Origin: Methanosarcina mazei S-6
Lineage (GTDB): Archaea > Halobacteriota > Methanosarcinia > Methanosarcinales > Methanosarcinaceae
Direction of reading: 5' to 3'
Assembly: GCF_000970205.1 (NCBI RefSeq)
Contig: NZ_CP009512.1
Coordinates: forward strand, 3,100,001-3,164,000
Length of the DNA stretch: 64,000 nucleotides
The notes beneath the pieces were generated by a model. The model saw only the letters and a list, made by a program, of their open reading frames with translations. It searched no databases and was not told the origin of the DNA. Within the stretch, counting starts at the first letter, position 1. Each line of letters opens with the position of its first letter. The translations under genes and the position numbers were made by a program. Of this stretch, positions 44,070-54,411 are shown piece by piece.

Positions 44070-44882
44070 TCACTGCTCTTCCAGTAATCGTTTCTGGTCA
44101 GCAAGCGTTCCTACCTGGTCTTTTTCTTCAATCACTTTGACAAAATGCCTGTCTGATAGATCTTCATTTCCTGACCAGAAAATTGCCTTATGGTATTTCC
44201 ATGCATCAGGGTCAAGCTCAAGGATTCCTACATGAATTATAAGTTCAAGGACAAACCAGTAAGCTGCCAGAAGATGCAGATAACGGATTAATGCCAGACC
44301 GTCCATATTAATCATAGACGCGAAGAACCAGGATATTGAAAGTATCCATTCTGGGACTGGAATCCCAAACGGAGACCAGGTAAGGCTATAAAGAACTATT
44401 CCCGTAAGTGCTACCAGGACAATTGCCGTGCTTTCAAAAATAAGCAAAAGCTTCATCCCGGGGTGGAGTTTGGTGACATAATGTCCTTTCCGCTCGTCAT
44501 AGACTGTAAATGCCGGATACTCACCCTTCCCGAAAAAGTTCTTTATTATATCAAGGAGACGTTCTGCGTCATCTTTTCCGAATAAATAAGATTCTTTGAA
44601 ATGATATAGGCGGTCTCCAATACTGCAGTGCTCTTCTTTGCAGGAAAATATATTGTAAGGGACAAGAAGCCAGTTTGCGACAAGGAAAAAAGGCACTGCA
44701 ATCATATGCAGAGCCCTTGCTGATTCAAAAGACATGAAACCCCATCCGGTATAAATTTTGAATCCCGTAATTAACAGGACAAACATGGAGATAAGGTGGA
44801 CCAGATGGGTAACCCTTTCAAGCCAGGTATAGCGTTCAACAACCAGTCTTCTGGAAGCGGGCTTTTCAGCAGACCGTACCAT
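44070..44882 (-). CDS. vhxC: Cytochrome b subunit of the second hydrogenase (VhxC)
   Basis: 270 residues with at least four membrane helices of the Ni,Fe-hydrogenase I cytochrome b family. Histidines that can bind haem lie in [31 protein letters not shown] and IIHVGILE. It would pass electrons from the small subunit to methanophenazine. It differs from VhtC at 50630 by many replacements but has the same ladder of conserved blocks ([33 protein letters not shown]). Last gene of vhxGAC; no D protease follows here. Confidence 0.95.
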   Translation of the reverse strand: MVRSAEKPASRRLVVERYTWLERVTHLVHLISMFVLLITGFKIYTGWGFMSFESARALHMIAVPFFLVANWLLVPYNIFSCKEEHCSIGDRLYHFKESYLFGKDDAERLLDIIKNFFGKGEYPAFTVYDERKGHYVTKLHPGMKLLLIFESTAIVLVALTGIVLYSLTWSPFGIPVPEWILSISWFFASMINMDGLALIRYLHLLAAYWFVLELIIHVGILELDPDAWKYHKAIFWSGNEDLSDRHFVKVIEEKDQVGTLADQKRLLEEQ

Positions 44883-44896
44883 ATTTTCATCCCCCT

Positions 44897-46687
44897 TTAA
44901 ACCACCCTGATTATGCGATCCGGATTCTTTTCAGTTTTATCAATTGTATGAATAGCACATGCAAGGCAGGGATCATAAGAGCGGGCAGTATGCAGGATTC
45001 CAAGAGGATTTGAATAGTCTACCCCAAGCGCATTTTCAGCAGCCGAGATTTTAGTGCCTATAAGAGCCTGCTCAACAGGGCTTGGAATTCCCTGAGCATT
45101 TCTCGGGGCGAGGTTCCAGGTGCTTGGAACTACAGCCTGGTACAGAGTTGTCATTGAATTAGAGCCGGAAGCCACCCAGTGCCCGAGAGCGCCACGCGGG
45201 GCTTCCCACAGGCCCATGCCTTCTGAGTTTCTTGCCATGGAAAGTTCCGTGTGTACTGCTACCTTTGCATTTGGCGTAAGGTCCTCTACAATCCACTTCA
45301 TGATTTCAGGAATCAATAAGAGGATTTCATGCATCCTTGCAAGCATACGTGTATAGTTGTTCACAGGGGAGTACCCATTTTCTTCAAAAGCATTTGCCAG
45401 TCCCGTAATAAGAGGCTCTTCCATGATCAGAAGACGGGAAATTGGGCCGACCTCACAGGGAATGCCATCATAATGGGGCGCTTTTATCCAGGAATAGCGG
45501 CTTTCAGAACCCCGTGTGTAATCAATTTCATCAGGATTGTCCTCAGGAACTGTAAGCCCATTCCAGGGAGGGCGATCCGCCTCCTCATCAATGTAAAAGG
45601 CATGAGTAATATTCTCAGAAATTTTCGTGTGGTCGAATTTTTCAGGCTGCAAATTCCCGTCCATATAACCTGAAGGAATTACTCTGTCCTCTGCAGGGCT
45701 TGTCGGGTCATAACCATCTCCCTGCTCTGGCTTGAAAAAAACGCCATAGGAAAGAAAACCAATTGTATTGGGGTCCTCATAACCCCCTGAACGGTCTAAT
45801 TTCAAACTAACTGGCAGCCCGAGAAGTGTTTCTCCAACAAGCTCCGAACCAAAGGCTGCAAAAAGAGGGGCATCTCCCCACCCGGTAGAGTGCGAAAAAT
45901 CATTGTTTGTAAGGGAATTGTCCACAAGCTCCTGAAGGTGTTCGACGACAAAATTGACAGCTCTCTCAGGAGAAGAAGCCCTGTAAGTGTTTTCTAACCA
46001 TGTCTCCAGAGGAACCCCAAGAGTGAATGATTCTATGAACTTTAAGGTCTGTGAGAGATATACCCCAAGCTGCTGAATATCTGCAACTGTCGGGGAATAA
46101 ACCACGCCTCCGACGTGCTGTAAAACAGAATGGGGCATTTTTCCTGCAACAAGAGAAATGCCCTCATGAAGGCGGCGGAACTCTCTTAAAGCACCAAGAT
46201 AAGAAGAGCCAGCAGGGTAGTGGGTACCGTTAGAGTGATTTATCAGAGGCATAAAACGCCCGGATAACTCGTCCCATACTGCATTTCCAGTATCTCCATA
46301 CTGTGTAAGAATATCATGGTAAGCCGGATTTGCAAGATCCGGGCCAAAGAGTACATAAACATGCGCTGCATGGCTTGCTATAAAATTCATCCCCTGGTGA
46401 ATATTCCTCATAACAAGGGCGTCTTTAGGCACCTGGTCCGCAACTCCAAAAAGTTCATCCAGGGCATTGGAAGCAGCTATACTGTGGCATACAGGACAGA
46501 CGCCACATATCCTCATTGTCATTAGTGCTGCATCTCTTGGGTCATGATTCTGGAGGAACCTTTCAAATCCCCTGAAGACAGTGCCGTTGCTCTGGGCATC
46601 AGTGATCACACCATTTCCATCGACTTCAGTATTAATCCTGTAATGCCCTTCAATTCTTGAAAGGGGGTCTACTGTGACCTGCACCAT
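44897..46687 (-). CDS. vhxA: [NiFe] hydrogenase large subunit of the second hydrogenase (VhxA)
   Basis: 596 residues. Both nickel-binding cysteine pairs are present: RICGVCP near the N-terminus and DPCLACAIH near the C-terminus, followed by a 16-residue tail beyond the His as in proteins processed by a maturation protease. The N-terminal LSRIEGHYRI and the late [10 protein letters not shown] (conserved Arg) are also intact. So the catalytic centre itself looks able to be built. The start overlaps the vhxG stop (TAATG). Compared with VhtA there are many differences, so this is a separate isozyme. Confidence 0.95.
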   Translation of the reverse strand: MVQVTVDPLSRIEGHYRINTEVDGNGVITDAQSNGTVFRGFERFLQNHDPRDAALMTMRICGVCPVCHSIAASNALDELFGVADQVPKDALVMRNIHQGMNFIASHAAHVYVLFGPDLANPAYHDILTQYGDTGNAVWDELSGRFMPLINHSNGTHYPAGSSYLGALREFRRLHEGISLVAGKMPHSVLQHVGGVVYSPTVADIQQLGVYLSQTLKFIESFTLGVPLETWLENTYRASSPERAVNFVVEHLQELVDNSLTNNDFSHSTGWGDAPLFAAFGSELVGETLLGLPVSLKLDRSGGYEDPNTIGFLSYGVFFKPEQGDGYDPTSPAEDRVIPSGYMDGNLQPEKFDHTKISENITHAFYIDEEADRPPWNGLTVPEDNPDEIDYTRGSESRYSWIKAPHYDGIPCEVGPISRLLIMEEPLITGLANAFEENGYSPVNNYTRMLARMHEILLLIPEIMKWIVEDLTPNAKVAVHTELSMARNSEGMGLWEAPRGALGHWVASGSNSMTTLYQAVVPSTWNLAPRNAQGIPSPVEQALIGTKISAAENALGVDYSNPLGILHTARSYDPCLACAIHTIDKTEKNPDRIIRVV

Positions 46688-47898
46688 TATTCTCTGCCCC
46701 CTGTCTCCTCAGGAACATTCTCCCCGGAAGTGCCTTCTTTCTCCTCTGGCTTTTTGAAAACCGTCCTTCTTAAGACATGAGCGCCTGCAGCAAGGAGTCC
46801 AGCTCCTATTGCAACGCCTGCTATGGTATCGAGATTGGTACCAACAATCCCGGCATCTTCAATCTCGACAAAAAAAGGCCTGGTGCTATCCGGAAAACCG
46901 GGCTGTACACAGCCTATGCATGGTGAGCCTGCCTGCGGGCAGAAGGTAAGGTGGCCGTTCCAGTGGCGTGTGGCGCAATCAGCATGAGAATAGGGACCTT
47001 TGCATCCCAGTTTCCAGAGACATTTTGGCCCTCCCACGGTTGTTTCGAACTCTCCACGGTCATAGTATCCGCGGCGGGGACAGTTATCGTGAACTGTATG
47101 GTCAGGAGGAAAGAAGACCTTCGGACGGTGCCACCTGTCCAGCACTTCAGGCAAATCATCAGGTACCCTGATTTTTCCAAGGGCTATTGCCCCTATGGTC
47201 AAAAATACCCAGTCAGGATGTGCAGGACAACCGTTGATATTGATTACAGGAGTATCTATCCCGAGAAGGTCCACAATCCCTTTTGATGGATCTTGCAGAG
47301 TAAAAGCGATTCCCCGGTGGTCCAGAAGGGCATCTATTTCACTTTCAGCGGCATTTACTCCACTATGTGTTGCACACTGCCCGATTGCAACGATTACCGA
47401 GGCATTTCTTGCAGCTTTCCCGTAAATTTCTTTGTAAGGTACCCCCCCAATCATCATGTATTTTCCGGTTCCATCCGGCCCGTTTGCAACTGCTCCCTCC
47501 GAAATAAGAATATAGCCTCTTTCGTGCTCAAGAATTTCCTCAAGAAGGATTTCAGAATTAAGCTCGGATGTGTTTGCAAGTTCTCCGTCAACAAAAATCC
47601 CCTGCTGCATCATCAAAACTTCCTGAAACATCAAATTGAGGTTAAAAAGCTGTAAAAATTCCACGATATCAGGATTTTCTCCGTCCAGCATGGATATTGT
47701 ACAGCCTGAATCCATCACTCCATGAAGCCATACCACTTTGGTTTCCGGCAGCTCGGCAAGGGCTTTTGCCATGTCATTTTTATATGTTTGTAAAAAAAGA
47801 GAAGCTCCCAGTACACCTACGGCTTTTATAAATGTTCGGCGGTCCATTTTCATGAAATCAAGATTTCTGAACTTTTCAAGTACAGAGTCTTCAACCAT
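46687..47898 (-). CDS. vhxG: [NiFe] hydrogenase small subunit VhxG with Asp in the proximal-cluster motif
   Basis: 403 residues. Twin-arginine signal MDRRTFIKAVGVLGASLF, then the electron-transfer domain. The distal and medial cluster motifs (CPRRGYYD, CLWKLGC, ADC, PCIGC) are intact, as are IGQC and NGCPAHP of the proximal cluster. The first proximal ligand is not Cys: VhtG has ECTGC (C67, C70) where VhxG has MDSGC, with D63 and C66. FrhG of the F420-reducing hydrogenase is known to use an Asp at its proximal cluster, so function is possible. C-terminal membrane-like helix (VAIGAGLLAAGAHVL). GGGGGAG precedes the ATG. First gene of vhxGAC. Confidence 0.95.
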   Translation of the reverse strand: MVEDSVLEKFRNLDFMKMDRRTFIKAVGVLGASLFLQTYKNDMAKALAELPETKVVWLHGVMDSGCTISMLDGENPDIVEFLQLFNLNLMFQEVLMMQQGIFVDGELANTSELNSEILLEEILEHERGYILISEGAVANGPDGTGKYMMIGGVPYKEIYGKAARNASVIVAIGQCATHSGVNAAESEIDALLDHRGIAFTLQDPSKGIVDLLGIDTPVININGCPAHPDWVFLTIGAIALGKIRVPDDLPEVLDRWHRPKVFFPPDHTVHDNCPRRGYYDRGEFETTVGGPKCLWKLGCKGPYSHADCATRHWNGHLTFCPQAGSPCIGCVQPGFPDSTRPFFVEIEDAGIVGTNLDTIAGVAIGAGLLAAGAHVLRRTVFKKPEEKEGTSGENVPEETGGRE

Positions 47899-48281
47899 TA
47901 TACTCCCCCAATAATAAAAATTATTTTTTAAATAGAATATAATAAAACATAGGTCCTATTATATTAAAAGACTATTACGGCTTTGGAGAACCTTCTAAAC
48001 TCTAACAAATAAAAATGACCAGAATATATTTTTAAGGACCATTCAGGAAATAGTTAAGAATATTAAAATAGTTCAGTTTTTTAAAACATACTAAAATAGT
48101 CAGGTTACATTAAAAATAAATATACATTTAAAAGAAATATAGTTTTTCTAAAGATTTATATATTTAAATAACCAGTTTATATATTGAAATTTTAATTTTG
48201 TATTTGCGGCACATCATATAAAAAACGGAACGCGCTGCAGAGTATATGGACTAGAATTATGAAGAATGTGGGGGATAGAAA
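47899..48281. other. Divergent promoter region between vhxG and the PG-binding-domain gene
   Basis: AT-rich. An odd palindrome ATAGGTCCTAT lies at 47949-47959 about 50 bases before vhxG. TATA-like stretches (ATTTATATATTT near 48155, TTTATATATT near 48177) would serve the plus-strand gene. Confidence 0.4.
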
Positions 48282-50025: not shown

Positions 50026-50511
50026 TTAAAGTGAGGATGAGACCTCTTTTCTGATAAGCCTTATAGCCTTATCAACGCCTTTAAACACATCCGGGCTTAT
50101 TTCCCTGGTAATTTCAGTGGCTCTGGATCCGATTTCAATTCCTATTACCACAATTTCCGGCAGAGTCTGAACCTGCTCCCCAATCATCAATACATCTGTA
50201 ATGGTCAGATCATGTACTGAGATCAGAGGGAGAAATTCGGCGTTTTTTAGCAGATCCCTGCCTTCAATGCGGTGTACGGAACCCGCAGGGCTGCCCGCCA
50301 GAATTGCGTCCACTATGATGACCTTTCTGGCACCATCGAGAAGATTTAGCAGATCAAGCCCGCAGACTCCTGCATCTTCGATGTCAAGACCTTCAAGCTC
50401 TTTAAACTCTTCTTTTTTAAGGATCTCGATAACTTTCAGACCAACGCCGTCATTTCCCATAATAGGGCTTCCGAAACCCAGGATACGGATAGGAGAATGC
50501 AATATAGTCAT
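50026..50511 (-). CDS. vhtD: Hydrogenase maturation protease VhtD (HyaD/HycI family)
   Basis: Endopeptidase that cuts the C-terminal tail of the [NiFe] large subunit after nickel insertion. Motifs: ILGFGSPIMGNDGVGLKV at the N-terminus (conserved Asp in GNDGVG), VDAILAGSPAGSVHRIEG (second metal-binding Asp) and SVHDLTITDVLMIG (His). I choose the ATG at 50511 (GGTGA just before it); an ATG at 50553 adds 14 unconserved residues. Fourth gene of vhtGACD, 76 bases after vhtC. VhxA also has a C-terminal tail, so this protease may serve both enzymes. Confidence 0.94.
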   Translation of the reverse strand: MTILHSPIRILGFGSPIMGNDGVGLKVIEILKKEEFKELEGLDIEDAGVCGLDLLNLLDGARKVIIVDAILAGSPAGSVHRIEGRDLLKNAEFLPLISVHDLTITDVLMIGEQVQTLPEIVVIGIEIGSRATEITREISPDVFKGVDKAIRLIRKEVSSSL

Positions 50512-50629
50512 ACTCTCACCATTACGAAACTGAATATATGTATTTTTATTCATTTTGATATGTTTGGATGTCTATACCGCATTTTCCTGTATCCGCACAT
50601 TTTCCGGGATTTCATGAATATTTCATGAA

Positions 50630-51442
50630 TTATTCTTTTACTTCCGAGGGTTTATCGGACGGGTCCCGCCATAGTTCCCTGTCAGGCAGGTGATTTGGAT
50701 TGTTTCTTGCAACCTCTACAAAGTGCCTGTCTGAGAGGTCTTCTTTTCCTGACCAGAATATGGCTTTGTAGTACTTCCAGACACGAGGATCAAACTCGAG
50801 AATTCCCACATGAACCACCAGTTCAAAGATAAACCAGTATGTCATCAGCAGGTGAAGAACCCTCAGGAACCCTACAGGAGTCATTCCGAATGTGGGTGCG
50901 ATCATGCCAGATATTGAAATGATCCACTGTGCTACCGGAAGACCAAAGAGTGACCAGTCAAGCTTGTACAGGACGATTCCTGACACCGTAATTAAGAAGA
51001 GTGCTAATCCTTCGAGTGGAATCAGGATCTTCATTAAGGGGTGAAGTTTGGTCTTGTAGTGGCCAGTCTTTTCATCATAGACAGTGAATGCAGGGTATTC
51101 GCCTTTCCCAAAGAAGTTTTTAATTATGCCTACCAGGCGAGCTAAATCTTTAGGACCAAAGATGTAATGGTCTACGAAATGCGATATTTTTCCCATTAAC
51201 CCGTGCCCTTCGGAAAAGATATTGTATGGTATAAGTATCCAGTTTACTGCAAGCAGGAACGGGACCGCAATCATGTGCAGTGTACGTGCTGTATGGAAGC
51301 TCATAAACTCCCATCCAGCGTATATCTTTAACCCGGTGATGATGAGCACTATCATCGCGATAGCATGTACCGTATGAGCTATCCTGTCCGTTATGGTATA
51401 GCGCTCAACAACCATCGTTTTCGGGTTGTTGTTAGATTTCAT
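50630..51442 (-). CDS. vhtC: Cytochrome b subunit VhtC of the methanophenazine hydrogenase
   Basis: 270-residue b-type cytochrome with membrane helices bearing haem-ligand His residues ([40 protein letters not shown]). Carries electrons from VhtG to methanophenazine in the membrane. The [21 protein letters not shown] and [10 protein letters not shown] blocks are shared with VhxC. It lies 25 bases after vhtA. Confidence 0.97.
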
Positions 51443-51467
51443 CGTGGGTCATCTCCCTGTACTGTAC

Positions 51468-53246
<1,779 letters not shown>

Positions 53247-53250
53247 TCAC

Positions 53251-54411
53251 TCACTCTCCTTTTCCCATTCTCCTTACTGCATGCACACCTGCAGCAACTG
53301 CGGCTGCCCCTACAGCTACCTTTGCTACTGTGTCAATATTTGCCCCTACAATTCCCTTGTCTTCCGCTTCAACATACAGAGGCCTTGACGCATCCGGAAA
53401 ACCCGGGTCTACACAGTTAATGCACGGTCCTCCTGCCTGTGTACACATGCTTACCGATCCGTTCCATCTTCTAATTCCACAGTCTGCATGTGCATACGGA
53501 GCTTTGCATCCCAGTTTCCAGAGGCACTTTTCTCCTCCTACTTCTTCGTCAAACTCTCCTCTGTCATAGTACCCGCGGCGTGGGCAGTTTTCATGCACTG
53601 TGTGGTCCGGCGGGAAGAACAGCTTCGGCCTTCCGTATTGGTCCAGAGCTGCTGGCAGGTCGTCCGGTATCTTTATTTTTCCAAGTATTACCGCACCCAG
53701 TGTCAGGAGTATCCAGTCAGGGTGAGCAGGGCAGCCCGGTATGTTAATTACCGGCTTGTCAATTCCAAGTTCCTTGAGCATGCCTTTTGATGCATCGGTC
53801 TTTTTGAAAGCAACTCCTCTGTAGTCTGTCTCCTTTTCAATATCGCTGTCTGCAGAGGTAATTCCTCCCCAGCATGCACATGCACCGACTGCAACTATTG
53901 CATTTGCGTTCTCTGCAGCCTCTCCTAGTGTCTCCTTGAACGTTTTGTTCCCTATAACCAGGTATCTTCCTGATCCGTCCGGACCGTTGGGGATTGATCC
54001 CTCAACGACCAGGATGTAATTTCCTTCTTTGTAAAGGTCTTCAAGTAAAATCTCTGAGTTAAGCTCTGAGGTGTTTACAAGCTCACCATCATTCCATATT
54101 CCCTGCTGCATACAGAGCGTCTCATGGTAAGCAAGGTTTACATTGAGTTTTGTCAGAGCCTGTGCAACATCAGGATTGCCTCCGTTTAAAAGAGATTCTG
54201 AACATCCGGTGCATTCTGAACCGTGTATCCAGATCAGTTTTGTCTCTGCAAACTCAAGCGCATTTACAATCTCTGTTTGATAGGTGCCAAGAAATGCAGT
54301 TGCACCCAGAGCGCTTACCGCCTTCATGAAGGTGCGGCGGTCCATTTTTAAGAAATCCATACTCTCAAGTGTACGGGTAAGGTTTTTCATTCCAGTACTC
54401 ATCTCTACCAC
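53251..54411 (-). CDS. vhtG: [NiFe] hydrogenase small subunit VhtG
   Basis: 386 residues, twin-arginine signal MDRRTFMKAVSALGATAF. Proximal [4Fe-4S] ligands ECTGC (C67, C70), VGAC and PGCPAHP; distal and medial clusters through HTVHENCPRRGYYD, CLWKLGC, ADC, CTQAGGPCINC. C-terminal hydrophobic anchor (VAVGAAAVAAGVHAV). GTG at 54411 gives MVEMSTG, matching MVED of VhxG; an ATG at 54402 is the alternative. First gene of the vhtGACD operon, with a TATA box and a perfect palindrome before it. Confidence 0.98.
   Translation of the reverse strand: MVEMSTGMKNLTRTLESMDFLKMDRRTFMKAVSALGATAFLGTYQTEIVNALEFAETKLIWIHGSECTGCSESLLNGGNPDVAQALTKLNVNLAYHETLCMQQGIWNDGELVNTSELNSEILLEDLYKEGNYILVVEGSIPNGPDGSGRYLVIGNKTFKETLGEAAENANAIVAVGACACWGGITSADSDIEKETDYRGVAFKKTDASKGMLKELGIDKPVINIPGCPAHPDWILLTLGAVILGKIKIPDDLPAALDQYGRPKLFFPPDHTVHENCPRRGYYDRGEFDEEVGGEKCLWKLGCKAPYAHADCGIRRWNGSVSMCTQAGGPCINCVDPGFPDASRPLYVEAEDKGIVGANIDTVAKVAVGAAAVAAGVHAVRRMGKGE

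Follow-up and report, generated by a model that had tools for sequence, protein, structure and literature searches.

Introduction

The closest described relatives of the system analysed here are the methanophenazine-reducing [NiFe]-hydrogenases of Methanosarcina, VhtGACD and VhoGAC. In group 1 hydrogenases, electrons leave the NiFe site by way of the proximal cluster. The present analysis concerns the related vhxGAC operon in a window of Methanosarcina mazei S-6 DNA (the whole analysed stretch of 64,000 nucleotides; contig NZ_CP009512.1, positions 3,100,001 to 3,164,000), in which the small subunit VhxG carries aspartate at the first cysteine position of the proximal cluster. So far, Vhx has been dismissed as an enzyme that cannot be active, and a passage of PMC6913021 gives the missing protease gene vhxD as the usual reason; the same source found vhx to be significantly regulated during acetate stress. 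An aspartate (Asp60) replacing one conserved cysteine has been described in FrhG of M. marburgensis (section of eLife 2013, PMC3591093). The portions of the literature on vhx and VhxG covered here make no mention of a proximal ligand swap; Guss 2009, Mand 2018, and Mand and Metcalf 2019 lie outside that coverage, so an earlier notice is possible.

Results

The initial annotation had claimed that VhxG bears aspartate in place of a proximal-cluster cysteine, while all other cluster ligands and both nickel-binding cysteine pairs of VhxA are kept, and this was confirmed on the open reading frames and alignments. VhxG and VhtG share about 59% identity, and M-D63-S-G-C66 of VhxG lies opposite E-C67-T-G-C70 of VhtG. 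Assigned to clusters by homology with known small subunits, the other VhxG ligands are C66, C175 and C224 (proximal), H270, C273, C293 and C299 (distal), and C308, C320, C327 and C330 (medial). The medial and distal ligand set of a Vht/Vho-type hydrogenase is complete in VhxG, and three of the four proximal cysteines are present. At the ten remaining cysteine positions, all 64 full-length small-subunit rows had cysteine; a 65th row (G026) lacks C175 through an internal deletion, and H270 was invariant in a 46-row alignment. VhxG matched PF01058 and PF14720 with 69.6 and 100.4 bits (cut-offs 27).

The partner subunits were similarly preserved. RICGVC and DPCxACxxH were kept in 30/30 full-length VhxA proteins; the APRG motif was also kept, and six histidines of VhxC (H26, H29, H59, H140, H203 and H217) were invariant in 55/55 rows; the Pfam match of VhxC scored 26.5 bits, under the cut-off of 30.1. 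No new cysteine confined to and fixed in the aspartate-bearing form (Asp type), as a possible substitute for the lost ligand, was found in the alignment of Vhx and Vht rows. Extra cysteines of VhxA were considered as substitute ligands and rejected, C67 being cysteine in 10 of 17 Asp-type rows and C411 in all Vhx, neither of which tracks the aspartate.

To place the substitution among relatives, 70 small subunits from 41 loci were compared, with one genome per species; genomes and loci are given G and L handles, and the incomplete assemblies include G015, G018, G020, G024 and G026. Of the 30 Methanosarcina genomes searched, 29 had VhxG-type or Vht-type small subunits; across the family, 62 of 111 genomes did. 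A small-subunit tree showed that the Vhx-type proteins form a single clade of 32 (support 100/100), sister to VhtG, which divides into 23 modern proteins and 9 basal ones (4 from Methanosarcina and 5 from outside that genus). Of the 32 proteins, 18 (17 G-genomes and Methanosarcina sp. UBA293) have MDSGC, 13 have ECTGC, including one row (G034) that the pattern search missed and that was assigned by eye, and one has GCTGC. The expectation of a conserved aspartate across Methanosarcina VhxG held only in part: the residue was invariant in 18/18 MDSGC-type proteins but not universal, 14 of the 32 having cysteine. The variable residues that would have spoken against a functional site were not seen, as position 63 was D or C and nothing else. 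Asp and Cys at this position are two lineage states in Methanosarcina and relatives.

Among 33 VhtG rows, the same position held cysteine in 31 and serine in two. A further census of 33 small subunits, nearly all of them from other genera of the family, gave 30 readable motifs, always with cysteine first, and three unreadable ones. Across the 18 Asp-type VhxG rows, 227 of 403 columns were invariant. The only columns separating them from 4 Cys-type Vhx, 9 basal Vhx and 33 VhtG were 62, 63, 64 and, in 17/18, 81 (F81); in VhxA the only such column was 170, in 16/17. This VhtG set does not include the G000 vho copy, a second small subunit present in G024, or the third-type proteins found in G021, G036 and G037.

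Named Asp-type records include M. spelaei (L009). From its clade position and the identity of G003, which we take to be M. barkeri, rather than from a named record, M. barkeri is probably Asp type as well. The Cys type occurs in the M. acetivorans-like genome G001 (ECTGC), which we take to be M. acetivorans C2A, and its kin. According to a passage of PMC13224831, none of the known active-site residues is missing from M. acetivorans Vhx; this fits G001 and would fail for the Asp types.

Two variants of Vht-related proteins were also recorded. In G015 (L075:2503-3666) and G018 (L077:5148-6308), both without vhx, the sole VhtG found has ESTGC, with serine at the first proximal ligand; the serine codons differ (TCC and AGC), and the relative G016 has cysteine. 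A third pair of small and large subunits with ECTGC, distinct from Vht and Vhx, adjoins vht in G021, G036 and G037 (L059:1322-4443, L070:1067-4092 and L071:11014-14036).

Selection was assessed as omega under the codon model MGK+F3X4 in IQ-TREE. The Asp type gave 0.111 for vhxG (18 rows), 0.128 for vhxA (17 rows, G014 left out for a contig end) and 0.185 for vhxC (15 rows, G014 and G020 left out for contig ends and G002 for a frameshift). For vht in these species the values were 0.149 for vhtG (17 rows), 0.167 for vhtA (17) and 0.217 for vhtC (16), and four Cys-type Vhx rows, with G026 excluded as damaged, gave 0.134 (vhxG), 0.128 (vhxA) and 0.200 (vhxC). Asp-type vhx is constrained at least as strongly as vht. 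The aspartate was encoded by GAT in 14 and GAC in 4 of the 18 Asp types, and Ser64 by TCA in 1, TCG in 6, AGC in 1 and AGT in 10 (TCN 7, AGY 11), so that the residues M-D-S are held while their codons shift.

Operon integrity was consistent with these values. Fifteen of the 18 Asp-type operons were whole, two were cut by contig ends and one had a vhxC frameshift, and no internal stop was found in any vhxG listed. In 3 of 30 Methanosarcina genomes vht was present and vhx absent, and one had neither. Upstream of vhxG, an element ATAGTC-TTTAATATA ... TTATAT ... TATATAAAA aligned in 23/23 modern vhx loci, whereas the sequence upstream of this element did not align. This disagrees with a passage of PMC13224831 that, with reference to Guss 2009, describes Pvhx as not conserved. 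Decay elsewhere in vhxGAC, the alternative named in the initial annotation, is rejected for the Asp type because codons vary synonymously, omega is 0.11, operons are nearly all whole and the upstream element is conserved.

Individual irregularities were noted at three loci. In L060 (G026, Cys type), vhxG has an internal deletion (residues ~142-191) and vhxA lies in two frames, in an assembly that is 60% complete. In L004 (G002), vhxC lies in two overlapping frames, which points either to a frameshift or to a mistake in the assembly. The G002 assembly is likewise incomplete, at 87%. In L009 (G027), an insertion of ~70 bases separates the upstream element from the ribosome-binding site.

The history of the swap was examined on a DNA tree of the RpoB region with 27 genomes, three of the 30 having no RpoB match. 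In one main clade, every member with vhx (14) was Asp type; in the other clade, G000 and G007 were Asp type as well. Two state changes were sufficient. G004 (L048) grouped with G025 and G027 by RpoB and VhtG, but its VhxG fell with the group holding G017, G028 and G006; because of this conflict, vhx is likely to have been exchanged between species. One origin of the aspartate followed by exchange is preferred, though not proven. The change may have proceeded by five in-register substitutions or by a codon gain and a codon loss, GTG GAG TGT to ATG GAT AGT, with one change per codon; whichever route was taken, the Asp loop equals the Cys-type loop in length. Gene conversion from vht as the source of Cys-type Vhx was considered and dropped, no match having been found in G019, where codons were judged by eye. 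An association of Asp-type Vhx with Ech (EchC orthologue in 15/17 Asp-type vs 2/9 Cys-type Methanosarcina genomes; Fisher p 0.0016) was not counted as evidence because it comprises only two independent contrasts.

The features of the window are collected in Table 1. Both operons lie on the minus strand, vhtGACD running from 54411 to 50026 and vhxGAC from 47898 to 44070. Apart from vhtD, which was located 196-5296 bases upstream of vhxG wherever the distance was measured, no hydrogenase protease gene adjoins vhx. A second vht-like operon with ECTGC, presumably vho, is located at 2.97 Mb of the 4.14 Mb genome. A further PF01058 protein at G000:C1 ~305001-305327 (L083) has no usual cluster cysteines (ISNLGNP, GDDACDGG, IPGNPPSP) and adjoins a large-subunit-like gene; it seems to be a hydrogenase or complex I relative without a cluster.

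Table 1 Positions of vhx and vht features in the M. mazei window
Feature	Position	Strand	Basis or remark
vhxG, [NiFe]-hydrogenase small subunit	46687..47898	minus	403-codon open reading frame; Tat motif DRRTF; PF01058 and PF14720; tree placement
Codons M62-D63-S64 (ATG GAT TCA), replacing E-C-T	47707..47715	minus	D63 is the first proximal-cluster Cys position
D63 codon GAT	47710-47712	minus	in vhxG
C66 codon TGT, second Cys of CxxC, kept	47701..47703	minus	in vhxG
C175, kept proximal-cluster ligand (IGQC)	47374..47376	minus	alignment; position computed
C224, kept proximal-cluster ligand (NGCP)	47227..47229	minus	alignment; position computed
vhxA, large subunit; Ni-binding Cys pairs C61/C64 and C574/C577; DPCxxCxxH C-terminus	44897..46687	minus	alignment, domain search
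vhxC, b-type cytochrome subunit	44070..44882	minus	conserved His; Pfam score below cut-off
vhxG start codon, ATG in the window	47896..47898	minus	aligned start column
Conserved upstream element ATAGTC-TTTAATATA ... TATATAAAA-like	47925..47975	minus	alignment of vhx loci
vhtGACD, four-Cys paralogue, internal control	50026..54411	minus	open reading frames, domain scores
vhtG	53251-54411	minus	ECTGC motif (C67, C70)

Discussion

What was observed directly is the substitution itself, how it is conserved and distributed over lineages, the purifying selection, and the conservation of operon and upstream element. The explanation that we favour, to which we would give an even chance, is that Asp-type Vhx is a maintained, weakly expressed variant of the methanophenazine-type [NiFe]-hydrogenase whose proximal cluster is either [4Fe-4S] with 3Cys-1Asp ligation or [3Fe-4S]. 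Because C66, C175 and C224 are kept and no new cysteine is fixed in the Asp type, the proximal site may hold an Asp-bound [4Fe-4S], a [3Fe-4S] or a Ser64-bound cluster, or it may be empty. An Asp-bound cluster, or one interconverting between [4Fe-4S] and [3Fe-4S], appears most likely, since the aspartate is invariant and there are aspartate precedents at the neighbouring ligand. Asp63 would then bind iron together with the three cysteines in a [4Fe-4S] cluster, one iron of which would be site-differentiated and perhaps labile; if Asp63 does not hold such a cluster, a [3Fe-4S] cluster would form. In H2 turnover, electrons would pass from the NiFe site through the altered proximal, the medial and the distal cluster to the VhxC haem and methanophenazine. 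A shifted proximal potential would bias Vhx, for instance towards H2 uptake, and from general hydrogenase chemistry we infer a higher potential that would favour this direction. The enzyme would be made in small amounts. The proposal in the initial annotation that Vhx is not simply dead finds support in the conserved site and the purifying selection, but the altered cluster potential that it also put forward is something we infer. A bolder version, in which hydrogenases with Asp as the first-position ligand (D-x-x-C) form a class of their own, held at deliberately low dosage through the long-conserved ACG start and the conserved promoter and acting as a high-potential scavenger of trace H2 or an H2 sensor on the outer face of the Methanosarcina membrane, seems to us unlikely.

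Several observations weigh against the hydrogenase-variant explanation. A strain of M. barkeri with only fre and vhx had no detectable activity, as cited in a passage of PMC13224831, and purifying selection is evidence of use, not of hydrogenase activity. No vhxD protease gene is present in vhxGAC operons. Against TIGR00391 (hydA), VhxG scored 158.6 and failed the cut-off of 179.5, which VhtG passed with 203.3, and an AlphaFold2 model of VhxG built from 46 sequences (mean pLDDT 59.5, block 61-70 at 55) is too weak to place the aspartate. On a motif-masked tree, three state changes were counted and the 18 Asp types were not all joined; a single Asp clade was not rejected there (p-AU 0.077). Finally, the start-codon column of the 23 modern vhxG (orthologues from loci L001-L009 and L044-L060) reads ACG in 18, ATG in four (G000, G006, G007 and G026) and GTG in one (G028).

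In the nine basal vhxG, that column reads ATG in six, G034 differs, and G021 and G035 lie outside the reading. Over the ten codons LLEKFKNLDF from the start column to the Tat motif, minority bases numbered 2, 1 and 20 at codon positions 1, 2 and 3 (21 rows), and this concentration at third positions shows that the stretch is translated in frame. No ATG, GTG or TTG was found upstream of it before a stop in G001 and G004. ACG as the vhxG start is the simplest reading, with a start at Met18 (MDRRTF) a possible alternative. To our knowledge, a long-conserved ACG start would be unusual in archaea, and a full-text search for 'ACG start codon' in archaea returned nothing relevant. The ACG start and the missing vhxD may help to explain the inactivity of Vhx in M. 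barkeri.

These observations bear on the competing explanations to different degrees. Vhx might be kept for a role other than H2 turnover. It could be a sensor of low abundance, a partner in assembly, or a module for electron transfer whose proximal cluster is crippled or missing; the first ligand would have been lost once fast catalysis was unneeded, and other constraints would keep the rest. The low omega alongside the M. barkeri result reported in part of the literature would fit such a role, as would the low dosage suggested by the ACG start and the absence of an own protease gene; it would not, however, need the nickel cysteine pairs, APRG, the DPCxxCxxH tail, the medial and distal ligands or the VhxC histidines, all of which are kept, and we regard it as somewhat unlikely. 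It is decidedly unlikely that Asp63 is non-binding, the loop having been re-registered by codon gain and loss to leave a plain three-Cys [3Fe-4S] cluster or Ser64 as the ligand. Each codon of ATG GAT AGT (or synonyms; AGT in 10/18) is one base from GTG GAG TGT of G026, compared with five changes by the in-register route, although this path is itself conjectural, and serine replaces the same cysteine in the VhtG of G015 and G018. Yet loop length and D-x-x-C spacing are unchanged, and Asp63 is as invariant as Ser64.

That the swap is neutral in the same working enzyme, with a near-normal cluster and no adaptive meaning, could draw on those two serine-bearing VhtG, which suggest a replaceable ligand, and on the two state changes needed on the RpoB tree. 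The site would then be expected to vary among 18 species, whereas M and S are fixed alongside the aspartate, which makes neutrality highly improbable. An early or slow pseudogene with ligand loss as the disabling mutation merits hardly any credence. The damaged vhxG and vhxA of G026, the frameshifted vhxC of G002, the genomes lacking vhx and the reported inactivity in M. barkeri point in that direction, but it is largely contradicted by omega of 0.11-0.19 and by the 15 whole Asp-type operons, the other three showing only contig-end cuts or the single vhxC frameshift; moreover, both damaged loci come from incomplete assemblies, and G026 is of the Cys type.

Vhx combines a discrete ligand swap at the cluster receiving electrons from the NiFe site with constraint as strong as that on Vht. 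This speaks for assaying Vhx again, this time properly expressed and matured. Both a Cys form (the M. acetivorans-like genome and its relatives) and an Asp form (the other genomes) occur in nature, and they constitute a ready natural experiment on proximal-cluster ligation.

Among known systems, VhtGACD and VhoGAC share with Vhx the three-subunit architecture, the Tat small subunit, the cytochrome b, and the nickel, medial and distal ligands. They differ in having four proximal cysteines in nearly all VhtG rows and their own vhtD, whereas the start of modern vhxG is mostly weak. The Huc small subunit of M. smegmatis belongs to a different family, and Huc is oxygen-insensitive; it offers a precedent in that, according to a published passage, its relay consists entirely of [3Fe-4S] clusters, which raises the potentials. 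HofK, the small subunit of the actinobacterial-type hydrogenase of Cupriavidus necator (5aa5), is a sequence relative of VhxG and likewise has aspartate at a proximal cysteine position (G-C-D-G-D), which we take to be a cluster ligand in that structure; unlike in VhxG, its second aspartate aligns with the second cysteine, and it belongs to a different subunit set in an aerobic bacterium. A 351-residue protein of C. necator pHG1 (L112:9963-11018), labelled 'hydrogenase expression protein HypE', appears to be HofK by sequence, length and place.

The parallel with FrhG drawn in the initial annotation holds in that M. marburgensis FrhG (3zfs/4ci0/4omf), like VhxG, has one aspartate for a cysteine at the proximal cluster. 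It does not extend to the position: in the aligned 3zfs_B the aspartate stands at the second cysteine (S-G-C-T-G-D), in VhxG at the first (D-S-G-C). FrhG of the genome containing the window and FrhG of 6qgr/6qii have C-T-G-C, and part of the FrhG literature describes a ferredoxin-type C-terminal domain, a further difference from VhxG. The aspartate at the second cysteine of CxxC that marks M. marburgensis FrhG and HofK is thus absent from VhxG, whose D-x-x-C would represent a ligand position distinct from both precedents.

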